Below the pieces are notes generated by a model. The model was not told the DNA's origin. It was given only the letters and a program-made list of their open reading frames with translations, and searched no databases. 64,000 nt of DNA, from the NCBI RefSeq assembly GCF_014195485.1, contig NZ_JACIBU010000001.1, positions 3,410,001-3,474,000 of the forward strand. Direction: 5' to 3'. The stretch is from Modestobacter versicolor. GTDB lineage: Bacteria > Actinomycetota > Actinomycetes > Mycobacteriales > Geodermatophilaceae. Positions 18,411-27,180 of this stretch are shown here, piece after piece; within the stretch, counting starts at the first letter, position 1; each line of letters opens with the position of its first letter. The position numbers were made by a program, and so were the translations under genes.

Positions 18411-18460
18411 TGCGCACTCGTCGGGGCACCGCCCCCGCGGGAGACCCCGACGAGTGCGCA
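18411..18460 (+). terminator. Hairpin after glyA
   Basis: Perfect 16-bp inverted repeat TGCGCACTCGTCGGGG / CCCCGACGAGTGCGCA with an 18-nt loop, 19 nt after the glyA stop. No U-tract. It isolates glyA from the Nit1C-type cluster. Confidence 0.7.
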
Positions 18461-18521
18461 CCGGGCAGTGCGGAGTCGGGCACGCGGCGGTAACCGGGCG
18501 CGGTCGCGGTGCGGTCTTCGT

Positions 18522-18535
18522 AACGACAACTCGTT
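18522..18535 (+). promoter_or_regulatory. Candidate operator before the Nit1C-type cluster
   Basis: AACGA-CAAC-TCGTT, a perfect 5-bp inverted repeat 46-59 nt upstream of the first cluster gene, between the glyA hairpin and the start. The regulator is unknown and no regulator gene lies in the cluster. Confidence 0.4.
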
Positions 18536-18580
18536 CCGGGCGTCACCACGGGGAAACCGCCGGCGACGAGCGTTCTCGCC

Positions 18581-19420
18581 ATGACGACGAGCGCTCCGGG
18601 GCGGGTGCACGACGCGCACCGGCACCTCGGGGTGCTGCCCGCCCACCCCTTCTACGGCGGCCCGCCGGTCAACCCGGACACCACCGCCCGGGCCACGATC
18701 GACCAGCTCGTCGCCGACCTGGACCGCGAGGGCACCGAGCGCGCGCTGGTCATCCCGAACTACGGCGTCCCCGACCCGACGGCGTCCTTCGCGCTCAACG
18801 AGCTGGTCGTCGAGGCGGCCCAGCGCGACGACCGGATCCGGGCCGGCCTGTGGACCAGCCCGCGCCCGCAGGACGCCGTCGCCACGGAGGAGGCGCTGGC
18901 CCTCGCCGGTGAGGACGGCGTCGCCGCGCTGAAGCTGTCCTTCCTGCTCGGCGGCGGGGTCGACGACCCGGCGTGCCGGCCGCAGCTCGACGCGGTCTTC
19001 GCCGCGGCCCGGCAGCACGACCTCGTCGTGCACGTGCACACCAGCCCCGGCGCGGCCAGCGACCTCGACCAGGTCGGCCGGCTCGTCGACCGGTACGCCG
19101 ACGACGTCGCCGTCCACCTGGTGCACATGGGCGGCGGGATGAGCGGCCACATCAAGCTCATCGGCTCGCGGTTCTTCGACTGGGTCGCCGCCGGCAAGCG
19201 CGTCTACACCGACACCAGCTGGGCGATCGGCTTCGCCCCGCGCTGGTTCGCCACCGAGATCGAGCGGCGCGGCACCGGCGCCGACCGCGTGCTGTTCGCC
19301 TCCGACCAGCCCTGGGGCGACTTCGAGGGCGAGTACGCCCGGCTGCTCGCCGCGACCGGCGGGGGCGAGCTCGCCGACCTGTTCTTCCGCCGCAACTTCG
19401 AGTCCCTGCACGGTTCCTGA
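18581..19420 (+). CDS. Amidohydrolase family protein, first gene of Nit1C-type cluster
   Basis: 279 residues of the amidohydrolase-2 (TIM-barrel) type. The metal motif is D-A-H-R-H near residue 12, other ligand-type residues are H-V-H-T-S and H-L-V-H-M, and the catalytic Asp is in F-A-S-D-Q-P-W-G-D near the end. Such enzymes cleave C-N or C-C bonds (decarboxylases included). It starts the operon, 21 nt before the MSMEG_0572-type gene, and probably handles a nitrogenous intermediate of the same pathway (inference). Confidence 0.88.
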   Translation: MTTSAPGRVHDAHRHLGVLPAHPFYGGPPVNPDTTARATIDQLVADLDREGTERALVIPNYGVPDPTASFALNELVVEAAQRDDRIRAGLWTSPRPQDAVATEEALALAGEDGVAALKLSFLLGGGVDDPACRPQLDAVFAAARQHDLVVHVHTSPGAASDLDQVGRLVDRYADDVAVHLVHMGGGMSGHIKLIGSRFFDWVAAGKRVYTDTSWAIGFAPRWFATEIERRGTGADRVLFASDQPWGDFEGEYARLLAATGGGELADLFFRRNFESLHGS

Positions 19421-19441: not shown

Positions 19442-19999
19442 ATGACCCAGACCCTGCCCGCCACCACCGGCACCCCGCTGATCAGCGACGCGGACCTCAA
19501 GGCCGCCCAGGACACCAGCCGCGGCGAGATCCAGCACCCCTCGCTGCCCAAGGGCAGCAACCTCTACGGCTCGACCAAGATCTTCCCGGACTACCAGGCC
19601 GGCGAGGGCGAGAGCTACTTCACCCTGGTGCACGGGATCGCCCACGAGTCCTCGGTCGCCTTCGTCGCGTGCCTGCAGGCGCTGCGCGCGCTGCGCAAGG
19701 GCTACGAGTCGGTCCTCTACTTCTACGGCCCGGGCGCGATGAACGCGATGGCCACCCGCGGCTTCCCGACCACCGGCGACAACGGCTTCCCGGGCGAGCA
19801 GAACATCAACAGCCAGATCGAGCGGTTCATCGAGGAGGGCGGCACGGTCTACGTCTGCCGCTTCGGCCTCTCGCTGCACGGGCTCCGCGAGGAGGACCTG
19901 ATCGCCGGCACGATCCCCTGCCACCCCCTGGACGTGCAGGACGCGCTGATCCACTACGCCCGCAAGGGCGCGATCATCAACTCCACCTACAACCTCTGA
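19442..19999 (+). CDS. MSMEG_0572/Sll0783-family nitrogen-starvation protein
   Basis: 185 residues. I recognise the conserved family by its highly ordered core (EIQHPSLPKGSNLYGS, YFTLVHGIAHESSVAFVACLQALRALRKGYESV, GPGAMNAMATRGFPTTGDNGFPGEQN, each partial here). Sll0783 in Synechocystis is induced by nitrogen starvation and affects polyhydroxybutyrate accumulation; the biochemical role is unknown. It is a marker of Nit1C clusters. ATG at 19442 has GAGAGG upstream. Confidence 0.92.
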   Translation: MTQTLPATTGTPLISDADLKAAQDTSRGEIQHPSLPKGSNLYGSTKIFPDYQAGEGESYFTLVHGIAHESSVAFVACLQALRALRKGYESVLYFYGPGAMNAMATRGFPTTGDNGFPGEQNINSQIERFIEEGGTVYVCRFGLSLHGLREEDLIAGTIPCHPLDVQDALIHYARKGAIINSTYNL

Positions 20000-20009
20000 G
20001 GCCGGGGTC

Positions 20010-21083
20010 GTGACCTCCGCTCCGACGAGGGCCTCGACCCGGGTGGACGTCGCGATCCTCGGCGTCCGGGTCGACGCCCAGGTCACCCGGCGGGCCGGGG
20101 CGGGCCCCAGCGACGACGGGCACGTGCTGCTCGGCGGGCACGGGGCCGCCCTGCCGCTCAACCCCGACTCGCCGTACTCGATCAGCGGCGGCCGGCTGCT
20201 GCTGGACGGCGCCGACCTGGGGCTGGACGCCGAGGCGGTCGAGCGGCCGCGGTTCTACGACCTGAGCACCGCGGACGGCGTGCCCTACGAGAAGCTCGCC
20301 CGGCTGCACGGCCGGGACGTGCTGGCCACCACGGTGGTGCAGACCTGCGTCCGGTACGCCGAGGCCGAGCGCTGCCGGTTCTGCGCGATCGAGGCCTCGC
20401 TGGCGGCCGGGGCGACCACCGCGGTGAAGAGCCCGGCGCAGCTGGCCGAGGTCGCCGAGGCGGCGGTCCGGCTCGACGGCGTGCGGCAGATGGTGATGAC
20501 CACCGGGACGACGAACGGCCGCGACCGCGGCGCACGGCACCTCGCCCGGTGCGTGCGCGCGGTCACCGAGGCGGTGCCCGGGCTCCCGGTGCAGGTGCAG
20601 TGCGAGCCCCCGGCGCCGGAGGACCTGGCCGCGATCGGCGAGCTGAAGGCCGCCGGAGCCACCGCGATCGGGATCCACGTCGAGTCGCTGGACGACGACG
20701 TCCGGGCCCGCTGGATGCCGGGCAAGGCCACGGTGCCGCTGGCCCAGTACCGCGCGGCGTGGGCCGAGGCGGTGCGGGTGTTCGGCCGGAACCGGGTGTC
20801 CACCTACCTGCTGGTCGGGCTGGGCGAGGACCCCGACGAGCTGGTCGCCGGTGCCCTCGAGCTGGCCGAGGCCGGGGTCTACCCGTTCGTCGTCCCGTAC
20901 CGGCCGCTGGCCGGGACGCTGGCGATGGCGGATGGGGTCGGGGCCCCCGACCCGGCGGTGCTGCAGGACGTCACCGACCGGGTGGCGGCCGGCCTGCGCC
21001 GGCTGGGCATGCGCGGTGCCGACCAGGGCGCCGGCTGCGCGGCGTGCGGCGCCTGCAGCGCCCTCCAGGCGGCCGGCGGATGA
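20010..21083 (+). CDS. MSMEG_0568-family radical SAM protein
   Basis: 357 residues, a TIM-barrel radical SAM enzyme of the Nit1C cluster. The cluster-binding cysteines are Cys113, Cys122 and Cys125 (C-x8-C-x2-C) rather than the usual C-x3-C-x2-C. M-V-M-T-T-G-T-T-N and the E-S-L-D segment fit the SAM-binding region. Three further cysteines form C-x2-C-x2-C at residues 343-349, a likely auxiliary Fe-S site. The reaction is not known. GTG start 10 nt after the previous stop; its TGA overlaps an ATG of the next frame. Confidence 0.93.
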   Translation: MTSAPTRASTRVDVAILGVRVDAQVTRRAGAGPSDDGHVLLGGHGAALPLNPDSPYSISGGRLLLDGADLGLDAEAVERPRFYDLSTADGVPYEKLARLHGRDVLATTVVQTCVRYAEAERCRFCAIEASLAAGATTAVKSPAQLAEVAEAAVRLDGVRQMVMTTGTTNGRDRGARHLARCVRAVTEAVPGLPVQVQCEPPAPEDLAAIGELKAAGATAIGIHVESLDDDVRARWMPGKATVPLAQYRAAWAEAVRVFGRNRVSTYLLVGLGEDPDELVAGALELAEAGVYPFVVPYRPLAGTLAMADGVGAPDPAVLQDVTDRVAAGLRRLGMRGADQGAGCAACGACSALQAAGG

Positions 21084-21095
21084 GGGCCCCCACCC

Positions 21096-21180
21096 CCGAG
21101 ATGGCCATCTCCGGGCTCCAGAACCCCCAGAAGATGGCCATCTTCGGGGGACCGGACGCCCCGGAGATGGCCATGTCCGC
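21096..21180. repeat. Three tandem GATGGCCATC-type palindromes
   Basis: GAGATGGCCATCTC (21098-21111), GAAGATGGCCATCTTC (21130-21145) and GGAGATGGCCATGTCC (21163-21178, one arm changed) lie about 32 nt apart at the junction of the radical SAM and GNAT-AIR genes, each flanked by C-runs on the left and G-runs on the right. The same palindrome occurs at 55895-55916. They form hairpins and the third supplies GGAG and an ATG that could start the next gene. Confidence 0.85.
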
Positions 21181-22603
21181 GGAGGCGGAGCGGGCGAGCC
21201 TGGACCGGAACGTGCTGCTCGTCGACTTCCGGACGCCGCCGACCACGGGCTCCTGGCAGGTCGAGGAGGCCGACGCCGCCGGGGCGGCTGCCCACCGCGC
21301 GCTGCGGCAGGCGGCGTTCGTCGAGGCCCAGGGCCTGTTCGCCGGCACCGACCTGGACGCCACCGACGACGACCCCCGCGCCGTGACCCTTGTTGCACGT
21401 GGAACATCTGGGGCGGTCCTCGGCGGCGTCCGCCTCGCCCCGGCCGATCCTGGTGGCCCGGACGTCGGCTGGTGGACCGGTTCCCGGCTGGTCGTCACCC
21501 CCGACGCACCCCGCGGCCTCGGTGCGGCCCTGGTCACCGCCGCCTGCGCCCGCGCCGAGCAGGCCGGCGTCCTCCGCTTCGACGCCACCGTGCAGCAGCG
21601 CTACGCCGGGCTGTTCGGCCGGCTGGGCTGGCAGCCGACCGGGACGGCGGAGATCGGCGGCCGCCCGCACACCACGATGACCTGGCCGATCGGCCGCATC
21701 GCCGCCCTCGCCGCGGCCACCAAGCAGCCGCTCGGCGACCTGCTCGGCGGGTTCCACCTCGGCGGCGCGGGCTATGTCGGCGATGACGGCGCCCCGGTGC
21801 CCGGCACCGACGTGATCGCCGCCTGCGACGCGATCCTGCCCTCGATGGTCGAGCGCGACCCCGGGTGGGCGGGCTGGTGCGGCGTGCTGGTCAACGTCAA
21901 CGACCTGTCGGCGATGGGAGCGGCGCCGCTCGGGCTGCTGGACGCGGTCGGTGCCCGGGACGCCTCCTTCGCCGCCCGGGTGCTCGCCGGGCTGCGGGAG
22001 GCCAGCCGGGCCTGGGGCGTGCCGGTGCTCGGCGGGCACACCCAGCTCGGCGTCCCGGCCTCCCTCAGCGTCACCGCGCTCGGCCGCACCGACCGGCCGG
22101 TCCCCGCCGGCGGCGGTCGCCCCGGCCAGCACGTCTCGCTCACCGCCGACCTCGGCGGGGGGTGGCGGCGCGGGCACACCGGCCGGCAGTGGGACTCGAC
22201 CAGCACCCGGACGACGGCGGAGCTGCAGCTGATGGGCTCGGTCGTCGCCCGCACCGCCCCGGCCGCGGCCAAGGACGTGAGCATGGCCGGCCTCGTCGGC
22301 ACGCTCGGGATGCTCGCGGAGGCCAGCGGCTGCGGCGCCGTGCTCGACGTCGCCGCCGTCCCCCGGCCCCCGGCGGCCAGCGTCGGCGACTGGGCCACCT
22401 GCTTCCCCGGCACCGCGTTCCTCACCACCGACGCCCCCGGCCGCGCCGTCGCCCCCGCCGGGCCGGCCACCAGCGCCGTCTGCGGCGAGCTCGTCGCCGG
22501 CTCCGGCGTGCAGCTGCGCTGGCCCGACGGCTCGCTCACCCCCGCCGTCCCCGGGCCGGTCACCGGCCTGGGGTGCGCCGACACCCCTGGAGTGACCCGA
22601 TGA
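21173..22603 (+). CDS. MSMEG_0567/Sll0787-type GNAT-AIR synthase fusion
   Basis: 476 residues from the ATG at 21173, which has GGAG 7 nt upstream. The frame is open back to an ATG at 21080 overlapping the previous stop, but the extra 31 codons are made of palindromic repeats and look like inserted DNA. Residues ~1-170 form a GNAT acetyltransferase (VTPDAPRGLGAALV is the acetyl-CoA loop). Residues ~190-476 form an AIR synthase/SelD-like ATP-binding domain (LVNVNDLSAMGAAPLG, GLRE, VLGGHTQ, then SMAGLVGTLGML). Both domains are standard Nit1C components. Product and substrate unknown. The stop overlaps the nitrilase start (ATGA). Confidence 0.9.
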   Translation: MSAEAERASLDRNVLLVDFRTPPTTGSWQVEEADAAGAAAHRALRQAAFVEAQGLFAGTDLDATDDDPRAVTLVARGTSGAVLGGVRLAPADPGGPDVGWWTGSRLVVTPDAPRGLGAALVTAACARAEQAGVLRFDATVQQRYAGLFGRLGWQPTGTAEIGGRPHTTMTWPIGRIAALAAATKQPLGDLLGGFHLGGAGYVGDDGAPVPGTDVIAACDAILPSMVERDPGWAGWCGVLVNVNDLSAMGAAPLGLLDAVGARDASFAARVLAGLREASRAWGVPVLGGHTQLGVPASLSVTALGRTDRPVPAGGGRPGQHVSLTADLGGGWRRGHTGRQWDSTSTRTTAELQLMGSVVARTAPAAAKDVSMAGLVGTLGMLAEASGCGAVLDVAAVPRPPAASVGDWATCFPGTAFLTTDAPGRAVAPAGPATSAVCGELVAGSGVQLRWPDGSLTPAVPGPVTGLGCADTPGVTR

Positions 22604-23436
22604 CCATCTCCGTCGCCGCCGTCGCGGCCCCCTTCGGCCGCGACCTGGAGGCATCGTTCGCGCTGATCGCCGACCTGGTCGAGCGCGCCCGCGCCCAGGG
22701 CGTGCGGCTGCTCGCCCTGCCCGAGGCCGCGCTCGGCGGCTACCTCGCCGACCTCAGCGGCGAGGGGGCGCCCGACCTCCCGCCGGCGCTGGACGTCGAC
22801 GGCCCCGAGGTCGCCCGGCTGGCCGCGATCGCCGGCGACCTGGTGGTGACCGCCGGGCTGTGCGAGTCCGACGGCGCCCGGCGCTACAACACCGCCGTCG
22901 CGGTCACCGGGGACGGCGTCCTGGGCGTCCACCGCAAGGTCCACCAGCCGCTCGGCGAGCACCACTCCTACGCCGCGGGTGACGGGTTCCGCGCCTTCGA
23001 CTCACCGATCGGGCGGATGGGCATGATGATCTGCTACGACAAGGCCTTCCCCGAGGCGGCCCGCACGCTGGCCATGGACGGCGCCGAGGTCATCGCCTGC
23101 ATGTCCGCCTGGCCCGCGGCCCGCACGCAGAGCTCGCCGGACCTCGCCGAGGACCGCTGGACCCGCCGCTTCGACCTGTTCGACCAGGCCCGGGCGCTGG
23201 AGAACCAGGTGGTCTGGCTCTCGGCCAACCAGAGCGGCACGTTCGGGCAGCTCCGCTTCGTCTGCAGCGCCAAGGTCGTCGGCCCCGGCGGCGAGGTGCT
23301 CGCGACGACGGGGGTCGAGCCCGGGATGGCGGTGGCCCGGGTCGACGTCCGGGAGCTGCTGGACGGCGCCCGGCGGTCGATGGCGCACCTGCGCGACCGC
23401 CGGCCGGACTCCTACGGCGTCCTCGCGGGGGTCTGA
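22600..23436 (+). CDS. Nit6803-type nitrilase, catalytically complete
   Basis: 278 residues of the carbon-nitrogen hydrolase superfamily. The catalytic triad is intact: Glu42 (L-P-E-A-A-L-G-G-Y), Lys113 (H-R-K-V-H-Q-P) and Cys145 (M-M-I-C-Y-D-K-A-F-P-E). Nit1C nitrilases hydrolyse small nitriles and are needed for growth on cyanide as nitrogen source in Pseudomonas fluorescens. The ATG overlaps the GNAT-AIR stop by 4 bp, and the flavoprotein gene follows by 2 nt. A related but inactive copy lies at 24826. Confidence 0.95.
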   Translation: MTISVAAVAAPFGRDLEASFALIADLVERARAQGVRLLALPEAALGGYLADLSGEGAPDLPPALDVDGPEVARLAAIAGDLVVTAGLCESDGARRYNTAVAVTGDGVLGVHRKVHQPLGEHHSYAAGDGFRAFDSPIGRMGMMICYDKAFPEAARTLAMDGAEVIACMSAWPAARTQSSPDLAEDRWTRRFDLFDQARALENQVVWLSANQSGTFGQLRFVCSAKVVGPGGEVLATTGVEPGMAVARVDVRELLDGARRSMAHLRDRRPDSYGVLAGV

Positions 23437-23438
23437 CC

Positions 23439-24767
23439 GTGACGACCGCCCAGACCGACCGCCCGGTGACCACCCGCGCGCTGCCCGAGCGGGTGGCGGT
23501 CGCCGTCGTCGGCGGTGGCCAGGCCGGGCTGTCGATCTCCTGGCACCTGGTGCAGCAGGGCATCGAGCACGTCGTGCTGGAGCGGGACACCATCGCCCAC
23601 GAGTGGGCCGACGCCCGCTGGGACACCTTCTGCCTGGTCACCCCCAACTGGCAGTGCCAGCTGCCGGGGTGGCCCTACCGCGGCGAGGACCCCGACGGCT
23701 TCATGCTCCGCGACGAGATCGTCGAGTACGTGCGCGGGTACGCGGCCTCCTTCGGCCCGCCGGTGCACGAGGGCGTCGCCGTCACCCGGCTCGCGCCGGC
23801 GCCGGACGGCGGCTACCTGCTGACCACCAGCGCGGGGGAGGTCGCCGCCGAGCAGGTCGTGCTGGCGGTCGGCGGGTACCACCTGCCCGTCGTCCCGGCC
23901 TACGCCGGCGGGCTGCCGGCCGACGTCGTCCAGCTGCACTCCCAGCAGTACCGCAACCCCGACCAGCTTTCCGCCGGTGACGTGCTGGTGGTCGGCACCG
24001 GGCAGTCCGGGGCGCAGATCGCCGAGGACCTGCACCTGGCCGGCCGCCGGGTGCACCTGGCCGTGGGCAGCGCGCCGCGGATCGCTCGCCGCTACCGGGG
24101 CCGGGACGTCGTCGCCTGGCTGCACGACATGGGCCACTACGACATGCCGGTCGAGCAGCACCGCGACGGCGAGGCCGCCCGGATGGGCACCAACCACTAC
24201 GTCACCGGTCGGGACGGCGGGCACGACATCGACCTGCGCCGCTTCGCCCTCGAGGGGATGCAGCTCTACGGCTCGCTCACCGGGCTCGCCGACGGGCGGT
24301 TCAGCTTCGCGCCGAACCTGACCGAGCACCTCGACGCCGCCGACCGGGTCAGCGAGAACTGCAAGGACCTCATCGACGCGCACGTCGAGCGGGCCGGCAT
24401 GGACGCCCCGGTGGAGCCGCGGTACACCCCGGTCTGGACGCCGGACGCCGAGCCGGCCTCGCTGGACGCGGCCGCGATCGGCAGCGTCGTGTGGGCGACC
24501 GGGTTCCGCGCCGACTGGAGCTGGGTGCGGGTGCCGGTGTTCGACGGCGCGGGCTACCCGACGCACTCCCGCGGGGTGACGGCCGCGCCGGGGCTCTACG
24601 TGCTGGGCCTGCCGTGGCTGCACACCTGGGGCTCGGGCCGGTTCTCCGGGATCGCCCGGGACGCGGCGTACCTGGCCGAGCGGATCGCCGAGCTGGCCGG
24701 GGCGCCGACCGGGCTGGGCCGCTCGCTGGCGGTGGCCGCTGCGTCGTCCGCGGCGCGCATGGCGTGA
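23439..24767 (+). CDS. MSMEG_0569-family flavin-dependent oxidoreductase
   Basis: 442 residues, an FAD/NAD(P)-dependent monooxygenase-like protein. The FAD motif [12 protein letters not shown] is near residue 12, and the second dinucleotide fold is [14 protein letters not shown] (~180). [10 protein letters not shown] segment and the C-terminal [17 protein letters not shown] are family-specific. It resembles flavin N-oxygenases and Baeyer-Villiger enzymes; substrate unknown. GTG start 2 nt after the nitrilase stop. Confidence 0.94.
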
Positions 24768-24825
24768 CCACCCGACCGCTCGCACCAGCTCTCGGCGCCG
24801 AATGCTGGTCGTCGGGGCGGGGCGC

Positions 24826-25641
24826 GTGAGGATCGCGGCCGTCTCGGCGCACTTCGGCCGGGACGTCGAGCAGTGCCTGGCCAAGATCGAGGGGATCGTC
24901 GCCGACGCGCGCGCGCAGGACGTGCGGCTGCTGGTCTTCCCGGACGCGACGATCGGCGGCTACCTCGGCGACCTGGGCCGCGGCGACGACACCGGGCTGC
25001 CACCGGCGCTGGACGCCGGGTCGCCGGAGCTCGCCCGGGTCGCGGCCGCCGCCGGGGACATGGTCGTCTGCGTCGGCTACCGGGAGAGCGCGGGCGGCCG
25101 GCACCACAACAGCGCCGTCTGCGTCACCGGGGACGGCGTGCTGGGCCGGCACCGCAAGGTGCACCAGCCGGTCGGCGAGCTGCCGGCCTACGCCGCGGGC
25201 GACGCCTTCACCGCCTTCGACACCCCGGTCGGCCGGATGGGCATGCTCATCGACTACGACAAGACCTTCCCCGAGGCCGCCCGCACGCTGGCCGGCCGCG
25301 GCGCGCAGCTGGTCGCCTGCCTCTCCGCGTGGCCGGCCAGCCTGACCAACCGGGCCCCGCGGCTGGTGCAGGACCGCCAGTCGCGGCTGTTCGACCTCTA
25401 CGACTGCGCCCGGGCCGCGGAGAACCAGGTGGTCTGGGTGTCGGCCAACCAGACCGGGACGATGGGCCGGCTGCGCTTCCTCGGCCAGTCCAAGGTCGTC
25501 GGCCCGGGCGGTGACGTGCTGGCCCGCACCTGGGCGAAGGCCGGCCTGGCCCTCGCCGAGCTCGACGTGCCGGCCGAGGTCAGCCGCGCCCGGCTGGTGC
25601 TGGACCACCTGCGCGAGCTCAAGCCGGAGGCGTACGCGTGA
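24826..25641 (+). CDS. Second nitrilase paralogue with replaced catalytic Cys and Glu
   Basis: 271 residues from the GTG at 24826, which aligns with the start of the intact nitrilase; an in-frame ATG at 24802 would add 8 residues. Colinear with the protein at 22600, sharing G-G-Y-L, T-G-D-G-V-L-G, H-R-K-V-H-Q-P and A-E-N-Q-V-V-W. The catalytic Glu is Asp40 (F-P-D-A-T-I-G-G-Y) and the nucleophilic Cys is Asp143 ([11 protein letters not shown]); Lys111 remains. Without a Cys it cannot form the thioimidate/acyl-enzyme, so it is probably a structural or regulatory partner of the active nitrilase, e.g. in mixed spirals. The reading frame is intact and G+C bias normal, so it is not a decaying pseudogene. 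Confidence 0.92.
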
Positions 25642-26786
25642 GGGTCGCCCTGCTCACCTACTCGACCAAGCCGCGCGGCGGCGTGGTGCACACCCTGGCG
25701 CTGGCCGAGGCGATGGCCCGGGCCGGGCACGAGGTGAGCGTCTGGTCGCTCGGCCGGGGCGGCGACGCCGCCTTCTTCCGGCCGGTCGACCCCGCGGTGA
25801 CGCTGCGGCTCGTGCCGTTCCCCGACGTGCCGGGCGAGGACGTCGGTGCGCGCATCCTCCGCTCGATCGAGGTGCTCGGGAACGCCTTCCGCGACGACTC
25901 CTACGACGTGGTGCACGCCCAGGACTGCATCAGCGCCAACGCCGTCCCCGGCTGCGTGCGCACGGTGCACCACCTGGACACCTTCAGCACCCCGGAGCTG
26001 GCCGCCTGCCACGAGCGGGCGATCGTCCGGCCCCGGGCGCTGGTCTGCGTCTCCGCCGCGGTCGCCGCCGAGGTGGCCGGAGGCTGGGGGCGGACGGCCA
26101 CCGTGATCCCCAACGGAGTCGAGGCCGACCGGTTCGCCGCTGCCGCCGGGCCGGCGGGGGCGGCCGGCCGCCGGGCCTGGCGCGACCGGCTGGGCCGCTA
26201 CGTGCTGGCGGTCGGCGGCATCGAACCGCGCAAGGGGACGCTCGACCTGGTCGAGGCGTTCGCGCTCGTCCGGGCGCGGCGGCCGGAGCTGCAGCTCGTC
26301 GTCGCCGGCGGGGAGACCCTGTTCGACTACCGCGACTACCGGGAGCAGGTGTTCGCCCGGGCGACCGAGCTCGGCGTGGCCCCCGTCGTCCTGGGGCCGG
26401 TGGCCCACGCCGACCTCCCCACCCTGGTCGCCGCGGCCGACGTCTTCGCCTTCCCCTCGACCAAGGAGGGGTTCGGGCTGGCCGCGATGGAGGCGCTCGC
26501 CGCCGGGGTGCCGGTGGTCACCCGGGACCTCCCGGTGCTGCGCGAGGTGTTCGGCGGCGCCGCGTCCTTCGCTCCCGACCCGGCCGGGCTGGCCGCGGCG
26601 CTGCTCGCCGAGGTGGGGGAGGACCGCAGGTCAGCGGGGCGCGCGCTGGCCCAGGGGCACAGCTGGGACGCCGCCGCGGCGGCCCACCTGGGGCTGTACG
26701 GGACCCTCGGGGCGGGTGGGGCGCCCGGGGCCGGTGGGACGGTTGTGCGCAGCTTTTCGGCCGAACCGCGTTTCATGCCCTCCTGA
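25638..26786 (+). CDS. MSMEG_0565-family glycosyltransferase
   Basis: 382 residues, a GT4-type (GT-B fold) glycosyltransferase. N-terminal Rossmann part begins [19 protein letters not shown]; the donor-binding half has V-G-G-I-E-P-R-K-G and the E-G-F-G-L-A-A-M-E signature. It marks Nit1C clusters and may decorate a pathway product. GTG overlaps the stop of the preceding gene by 4 bp. Its stop lies in the loop of an inverted repeat (26762-26808). Confidence 0.93.
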   Translation: MRVALLTYSTKPRGGVVHTLALAEAMARAGHEVSVWSLGRGGDAAFFRPVDPAVTLRLVPFPDVPGEDVGARILRSIEVLGNAFRDDSYDVVHAQDCISANAVPGCVRTVHHLDTFSTPELAACHERAIVRPRALVCVSAAVAAEVAGGWGRTATVIPNGVEADRFAAAAGPAGAAGRRAWRDRLGRYVLAVGGIEPRKGTLDLVEAFALVRARRPELQLVVAGGETLFDYRDYREQVFARATELGVAPVVLGPVAHADLPTLVAAADVFAFPSTKEGFGLAAMEALAAGVPVVTRDLPVLREVFGGAASFAPDPAGLAAALLAEVGEDRRSAGRALAQGHSWDAAAAAHLGLYGTLGAGGAPGAGGTVVRSFSAEPRFMPS

Positions 26787-26877: not shown

Positions 26878-27180
26878 ATGTCGTACCAGAAGCCTTCGAT
26901 CTTCCAGCTGGGCAAGGTGCACGAGAACGGTCCGTCGGTGATCGTCTCCGGGTGGGGCCTGGGCATGTGCGCCTCGGCCTGCCGCTGCCACCGCAACCCC
27001 GCCGACGGCCAGCTGGCCCTCGCCGAGGACCAGGCCGGCGGCAGCCTGGGGCTGCAGAGCTTCACCGCCACCGGCAGCTGCGACTGCTGCGAGGCGTGGA
27101 CCTCGGCCGAGCTGGCCTCGATCCTGCGCGACGTCGCCGCCCTCGAGGCCCTCGACGCCTCGGAGCCCGCCGCGGGCTGA
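26878..27180 (+). CDS. Cys-rich small protein with leader-like N terminus
   Basis: 100 residues; ATG at 26878 has GAGGGG 7 nt upstream. The N terminus Y3-x2-P6-x-I8-x3-G12 resembles the Y-x2-P-x-L-x3-G pattern of lasso-peptide and other RiPP leaders. It is followed by a Gly/Cys section (G-W-G-L-G-M-C-A-S-A-C-R-C-H), a spacer, a second cluster (T-G-S-C-D-C-C-E-A-W) and an acidic helical tail. Six cysteines in all, three in each cluster (C-x3-C-x-C and C-x-C-C). No family recognised. It could be a modified peptide precursor or a metal-binding protein. No RiPP maturase is beside it except the radical SAM and TldD/E genes elsewhere in the window, and a link to those is speculation. A hairpin ends the gene. 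Confidence 0.75.
   Translation: MSYQKPSIFQLGKVHENGPSVIVSGWGLGMCASACRCHRNPADGQLALAEDQAGGSLGLQSFTATGSCDCCEAWTSAELASILRDVAALEALDASEPAAG

Follow-up and report, generated by a model that had tools for sequence, protein, structure and literature searches.

What does a nitrilase-fold protein do when aspartate stands in place of its catalytic cysteine, and its gene is kept in one operon beside an intact paralogue? The question is raised by a gene cluster of Modestobacter versicolor, located in a stretch of 64,000 nucleotides (called here the window). A preliminary description placed two nitrilase genes in this cluster, the first (CN1) with an intact Glu-Lys-Cys triad and the second (CN2) with two aspartates in place of Glu and Cys. 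The features of the cluster are as follows.

18520-18557, + strand: putative GlnR-box-like site GTAAC-n17-GTCAC-n6-GAAAC, upstream of the cluster (pattern search)
18581-19420, + strand: amidohydrolase (PF04909, Pfam), found with the cluster in 48 of the 76 loci of at least 8 kb
19442-19999, + strand: MSMEG_0572/Sll0783-family nitrogen starvation response protein (NCBIfam)
20010-21083, + strand: MSMEG_0568-family radical SAM protein, rSAM (NCBIfam)
21080-22603, + strand: MSMEG_0567-family GNAT/AIR-synthase-like fusion (NCBIfam)
22600-23436, + strand: CN1, CN_hydrolase with intact Glu42-Lys113-Glu120-Cys145 (profiles, alignment)
23439-24767, + strand: MSMEG_0569-family flavin-dependent oxidoreductase, the sole gene between CN1 and CN2 (NCBIfam)
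24826-25641, + strand: CN2, Cys-less CN_hydrolase paralogue with Asp40, Lys111, Glu118 and Asp143 (frame, Pfam profile, alignment)
25638-26786, + strand: MSMEG_0565-family glycosyltransferase, whose start overlaps the CN2 stop in GTGA (NCBIfam)

Gene content of the cluster

The two CN hydrolase genes are separated by the flavoprotein gene and not by two genes, as had been described. The coupling of CN2 to the glycosyltransferase was described correctly: the CN2 stop at 25639-25641 overlaps the GTG start at 25638.

The assignment as a Nit1C-type cluster holds in part. The Nit1C families MSMEG_0572, 0568, 0567 and 0569 are all present, with TIGR04044, 04043, 04050, 04045 and 04046 above their cut-offs, while the separate sll0787 AIR model (TIGR04049) scores below its own cut-off in the window. 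A Nit1C cluster would also contain a Nit6803-family nitrilase and an MSMEG_0570 gene. Here the nitrilase is replaced, and the MSMEG_0570 homologue lies outside the cluster, elsewhere in the genome (G000:C1:2750444). The arrangement expected of the gpr type, namely two CN hydrolases and an MSMEG_0565-family glycosyltransferase, is present, and on the families that it contains the cluster is an actinobacterial (M. smegmatis “gpr”) relative of Nit1C.

The name nitrilase is too specific for either copy, because both score far below the curated cut-off of the Nit6803 model (TIGR04048; 39.5 bits for CN1 and 31.2 for CN2, against 502.6). In sequence and fold they best match archaeal nitrilase/amidase and carbamoylputrescine amidase, and both proteins look more like amidases than Nit6803-family nitrilases. 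The proposed nitrile or cyanide hydrolysis is not supported in that form, since neither copy falls in the Nit1C nitrilase family.

The core of the GlnR-box-like site, GTnAC-n6-GAAAC, has a single match in the window (18542), where chance predicts 0.05; the full 38-base pattern was drawn up after the site was seen. The core fits the a-site/b-site description quoted in the available text of PMC3662644. The position of the site is conserved within Geodermatophilaceae, and outside this family the four-half-site score is often no better than those of 50 shuffles.

Several other elements were observed. A terminator-like inverted repeat, read by eye at 18413-18462 just 3′ of an SHMT gene, parts that gene from the cluster. 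Directly after the glycosyltransferase lies a Cys-rich ORF of 100 aa (26878-27180), containing CASACRCH and CDCC, which has no Pfam or NCBIfam match, is also found at the same place in three other loci (L033, L040, L057), and is perhaps a peptide precursor. At the 5′ end of the GNAT/AIR gene (21099-21197) there are three copies of a 33-nt direct repeat with the palindromic core AGATGGCCATCT. The 18-base pattern AGATGGCCATCTNCGGGG has 41 copies in the genome (G000; 17 forward, 24 reverse) compared to none for the reversed control, and the repeat is an interspersed REP-like element.

Active-site residues of the two copies

CN2 is a 271-residue CN_hydrolase-family protein, encoded by a frame that is open throughout, as described previously. 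Its start is ambiguous, in that the GTG at 24826 agrees with homologues and an in-frame ATG is also present at 24802. It matches the PF00795 profile with 109.9 bits (cut-off 23.2), and is 59% identical to CN1. An alignment of 175 distinct proteins, from which 13 partial rows shorter than 230 aa were left out, pairs Asp40, Lys111, Glu118 and Asp143 of CN2 with Glu42, Lys113, Glu120 and Cys145 of CN1. The residues reported for both copies are therefore seen in the alignment, and it adds a fourth catalytic residue absent from the preliminary description, the glutamate at 118 in CN2 and 120 in CN1. In CN2, Asp40 is found in FPDATIGG, Lys111 in HRKVH and Glu118 in VGELPAY, and the CN1 nucleophile segment containing Cys145 is MICYDKAFPEA. 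The DYD motif of CN2 and the CYD motif of CN1 align without gaps to CFD of PH0642 (1j31), so that there is no alternative Cys at the nucleophile position of CN2, and the loss of the nucleophile stands. CN1 has the Glu-Lys-Cys triad; CN2 has Asp-Lys-Asp, and is thus a member of the nitrilase superfamily by fold, not a canonical enzyme member.

Two structure models were predicted, with pLDDT 83.6 and 84.8. In the CN2 model certainty is lowest at residues 170-177, and the block 141-150, which includes the nucleophile position, averages only 69. The CN2 model matches 3ivz in Foldseek with an E-value of 1.9e-21. Its best matches include structures of PH0642, PaNit and N-carbamoylputrescine amidase (1j31, 3ivz, 6ypa, 5h8i-l), at TM 0.7-0.8 and about 25% identity, which have the same fold and aligned active-site positions. 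These proteins use Cys, whereas CN2 has a natural Asp in its place. In two of the structures, 6ypa and 5h8l, the Cys is also missing, but there it was removed by the experimenters; 6ypa is the C146A variant of the PH0642 amidase with glutaramide bound.

Nitrilase-superfamily chemistry proceeds through a thio-acyl intermediate on the Cys nucleophile. With no Cys in CN2 this intermediate cannot form, from which we infer that CN2 has lost the hydrolysis typical of the family.

Conservation, partners and origin of the Asp lineage

Homologous loci were collected by a peptide-pattern scan using six patterns, one of which contains the Asp motif; of the 136 loci found, the analysis used the best 80, all of them titled as actinobacteria and together naming 21 genera with CN2. 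Together with genomes of relatives they gave 88 distinct CN2 proteins and 87 CN1-type rows, the latter including a distant homologue (L018, with the signature Glu-Lys-Glu-Cys or EKEC) and a degenerate third copy (L031). Asp143 and Lys111 are present in 88/88 CN2 proteins, and the full signature DKED in 86/88, the other two having Tyr or His at position 40. EKEC is found in 86 of the 87 CN1-type rows, the exception being L031. One of the partial rows left out (L017), from a genome not otherwise represented (G015), also has Asp. Searches of whole genomes, ranked by overall similarity, agree with the pattern scan: in 47 CN2 loci drawn by similarity, a set that overlaps in species with the 88 proteins, Asp143 and Lys111 are each present in 47/47 and Asp40 and Glu118 each in 45/47. 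A few CN2 proteins have Tyr, His or Gly at position 40 and Val or Asp at 118, and a deep member (G429) reads DKDD.

The two copies occur together. In a sample of the order, 64 of 397 genomes had a match; 61 hold CN2, and every one of them also has an EKEC CN1 (61/61). The signatures were newly read, except for 15 genomes taken from the earlier loci. In the remaining three, the match is only a third type of copy (G463, G470) or, in G588, which is 57% complete, a fragment. In a smaller search of relatives, CN1 was found in 13 of the 15 genomes with CN2; the exceptions are 80% (G002) and 72% (G015) complete. Three loci (L055, L074, L094) seemed to hold CN2 without CN1, but CN1 was found elsewhere in each genome. 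Both copies are thus conserved in relatives, and the Asp twin is kept in its operon, as had been described, together with an intact CN1 in many actinobacteria. The pair is absent from some clusters, given that in a sample of the phylum only 5 of the 28 genomes (out of 396) that carry the radical SAM gene hold CN2 and CN1. Among 20 of those 28 genomes tested, none has a Nit6803-type nitrilase above the cut-off and 8 have weaker matches, and most deep radical-SAM clusters have no CN hydrolase by the profile used.

CN2 is linked to the glycosyltransferase. The latter follows CN2 in 75 of the 76 loci of at least 8 kb, with 0-96 bases between the matched parts, and this order also holds in loci where the position of CN1 or the flavoprotein is different. 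CN1 is present in 74 of these 76 loci (missing from L074 and L094), and is apart from CN2 in gene order in Williamsia CHRR-6 (L093) and Gordonia (L095), and on a different contig in P. terrae. Distance matrices from 60 diverse loci gave partial correlations of 0.54 for GNAT/AIR with CN1, 0.40 for rSAM with CN2 and 0.03 for CN2 with the glycosyltransferase. For CN1 with CN2, the pair proposed to form mixed filaments or to act allosterically, the value was middling, with no raised signal (partial r 0.20), which counts against a tight CN1-CN2 complex. In the loci scanned there was no fusion involving CN1 or CN2, either with each other or of CN2 with the glycosyltransferase.

CN2 is kept under purifying selection. 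In six CN2 pairs of at least 92% identity dN/dS is 0.10-0.14, and over all pairs within Geodermatophilaceae the 91 CN2 pairs have a median of 0.32 and the 78 CN1 pairs one of 0.28, these absolute values being soft since a GC3 of 0.96-0.99 compresses dS. A general rule that CN2 evolves more slowly than CN1 was considered and dropped: it is true over the 60 diverse loci (mean distance 0.361 compared to 0.456) and false inside Geodermatophilaceae, where nine loci have a mean identity of 81.7% for CN2 and 83.5% for CN1. Mean column identity is 76% in 27 CN2 and 70% in 25 CN1 proteins. When 93 CN2 were compared with 92 CN1 sequences, 8 columns were fixed differently (at least 95%), including Glu/Asp40 and Cys/Asp143; that two of the four catalytic columns are among them has P of about 0.004. 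Further fixed or nearly fixed changes in CN2 are Thr147, Leu188, Gln221, Lys238 and Glu264. The four catalytic columns stand only somewhat above general conservation, as 98 of the 271 columns are equally conserved (P about 0.016).

In a tree of 66 proteins, the 31 CN2 form one clade (support 100/98) and the 29 CN1 another (100/93), and the tree requires one change from Cys to Asp. The basal genomes G156 and G177 each have, as the sole CN hydrolase found with cluster genes, an EKEC copy that groups with CN1 (98/84). Near this copy no glycosyltransferase was seen, the cluster of G156 being split over contigs. Stand-alone EKEC relatives from G156, G177, G199 and G436 are placed next to CN2 with support 86 when the tree is rooted on one long branch, indicating that the CN1 and CN2 lines split before the Asp arose. 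To judge from the Cys-type relatives examined, Asp is the derived state, and CN2 may have taken it on joining the cluster with the glycosyltransferase. The stand-alone EKEC relatives so placed in deep actinobacteria (L128, L131, L133, L134), with no cluster genes found in the stretches fetched, are candidates for the function of the ancestor of CN2.

A second, variable damaged active site was observed in one genus (g24), in third CN1-like copies: L155 (G046), L245 (G463), L246 (G470) and L247 (G455). Their signatures are EQ-C twice, GN-S and D--G. In these copies the Lys/Glu loop is changed or missing, and the nucleophile position has Cys (twice), Ser or Gly. No cluster genes were seen near L155. 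As far as their residues indicate, these copies are what drift would look like.

Possible roles of CN2 and comparison with known systems

The Cys to Asp swap is old and has been kept, and for this reason the usual hydrolysis is probably not what the twin does. It can be argued from the invariant Lys111 and Asp143 that the pocket still matters. We would give an even chance to CN2 being a selected pseudo-hydrolase of single origin, a ligand-binding and non-hydrolytic partner of CN1 and/or the glycosyltransferase. Both copies would derive from one ancestral gene, with CN1 retaining Glu-Lys-Glu-Cys in the cluster. In the CN2 line the nucleophile Cys and the base Glu were each replaced by Asp, and Lys and the second Glu were retained. 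CN2 would still bind the pathway ligand in its Lys-Asp pocket, and would serve as a sensor, chaperone or subunit for CN1 and/or the downstream glycosyltransferase.

A new reaction would be just as compatible with the retention of Lys, Glu and Asp. CN2 would then be a working enzyme, in which Asp143 acts as nucleophile or as general base/acid with Lys111 and Glu118, carrying out for example a lyase, isomerase or ester-forming step. Such a reaction would belong to the same pathway at another point, probably beside the glycosyltransferase. We regard this as possible, though unlikely. Lys111 and Asp143 are invariant and Asp40 and Glu118 nearly so, several changes are fixed in the CN2 clade, CN2 distances track rSAM above CN1, and CN2 travels with the glycosyltransferase and not with CN1. 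However, by entry names there is no Asp-nucleophile enzyme on this fold among 45 sequence matches and the best 50 of 723 fold matches, the Lys-Asp ion pair may merely neutralise a dead pocket, and in partial correlation the distances of CN2 scarcely follow those of the glycosyltransferase. A bolder and still less likely proposal, which we make tentatively and by analogy, is that CN2 founds a class of nitrilase-fold enzymes with Asp for Cys (Asp-Lys-Glu/Asp machinery), responsible for a step that is non-hydrolytic or depends on Asp, in a nitrogen-starvation pathway yet to be characterised. The analogy is with haloalkane dehalogenases, in which aspartate took the place of serine in the alpha/beta-hydrolase fold.

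The mixed filaments suggested in the preliminary description would make CN2 a purely structural subunit, which caps or extends CN1 oligomers and whose pocket has no role. CN hydrolases generally oligomerise, CN1 coexists with CN2 throughout the order sample, and helix 182-200 of the model is largely invariant among CN2. On the other hand Lys111, Glu118 and Asp143 would be expected to disappear from a scaffold without a pocket, yet are kept, the distances give no sign of raised coevolution between CN1 and CN2, and the genes are separated in Williamsia, Gordonia and P. terrae; a purely structural role is improbable. It is far less probable that CN2 is an ordinary hydrolase with another nucleophile, or that the Asp is an artefact. 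Cys82 is invariant in the 28 CN2 compared, but lies on a different strand in the model (residues 80-89), and misalignment, sequencing error and chance were rejected on the gap-free motif, also against solved structures, the Asp throughout both overlapping sets, and the lack of internal stops in the 88 proteins. That CN2 is a decaying duplicate hitch-hiking in the operon is scarcely credible. It has lost the canonical catalytic residue, and there is one fragment with an internal TGA, in the 72% complete genome G015. Degeneration is ruled out by the low dN/dS of close pairs and the absence of internal stops in the aligned proteins, and the scrambled g24 copies look different.

The Nit1C cluster with its Nit6803/NitC nitrilase, as far as it is described in the available text of Podar 2005 (PMC1199592) and PMC11049912, has the MSMEG_0572/Sll0783, radical SAM, GNAT, AIR-synthase-like and flavoprotein families in common with the window. 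It has a single Nit6803-family nitrilase, whereas the window has the CN1/CN2 pair, from another branch of CN_hydrolase.

Pseudoenzymes in general (PMC10211241) are already a known kind of protein, and CN2 resembles them as a paralogue that lacks the canonical catalytic residue and is kept beside an intact one. In the open-access literature searched, where one listing covered 20 of 854 papers, there was no report of a nitrilase-superfamily pseudoenzyme or of a Cys-less CN hydrolase in this cluster; an earlier notice of such a case in subscription journals is possible. CN2 is a clear-cut, old and still-selected Cys-to-Asp branch of the superfamily, and since it is kept together with CN1, two small proteins are enough for testing how a pseudoenzyme, or a new chemistry, arises.

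The closest known system is the gpr operon of Mycobacterium smegmatis (MSMEG_0565-0572), which according to the available text of PMC6039565 confers peroxide resistance under nitrogen starvation, and according to that of PMC4222082 and PMC3662644 is induced on nitrogen starvation through GlnR. This phenotype is known and the chemistry is not, and the cyanide/nitrile reading of the actinobacterial cluster is called into question by the present results. The stop of MSMEG_0571 was proposed to be a selenocysteine codon (PMC6039565, available text), and CN1 in the window likewise ends in TGA. The same source describes MSMEG_0566 as a putative aliphatic amidase with a possible contribution to nitrogen assimilation. 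From its position next to MSMEG_0565 we infer that MSMEG_0566 is the counterpart of CN2 and would thus be Cys-less, and the CN2 data question its annotation as an amidase. In the parts of these sources available, the operon and the window contain the same families, including two CN hydrolases (0571 and 0566), of which 0566 is numbered next to the glycosyltransferase 0565; the window differs in having no clustered MSMEG_0570 gene and in having an extra amidohydrolase.
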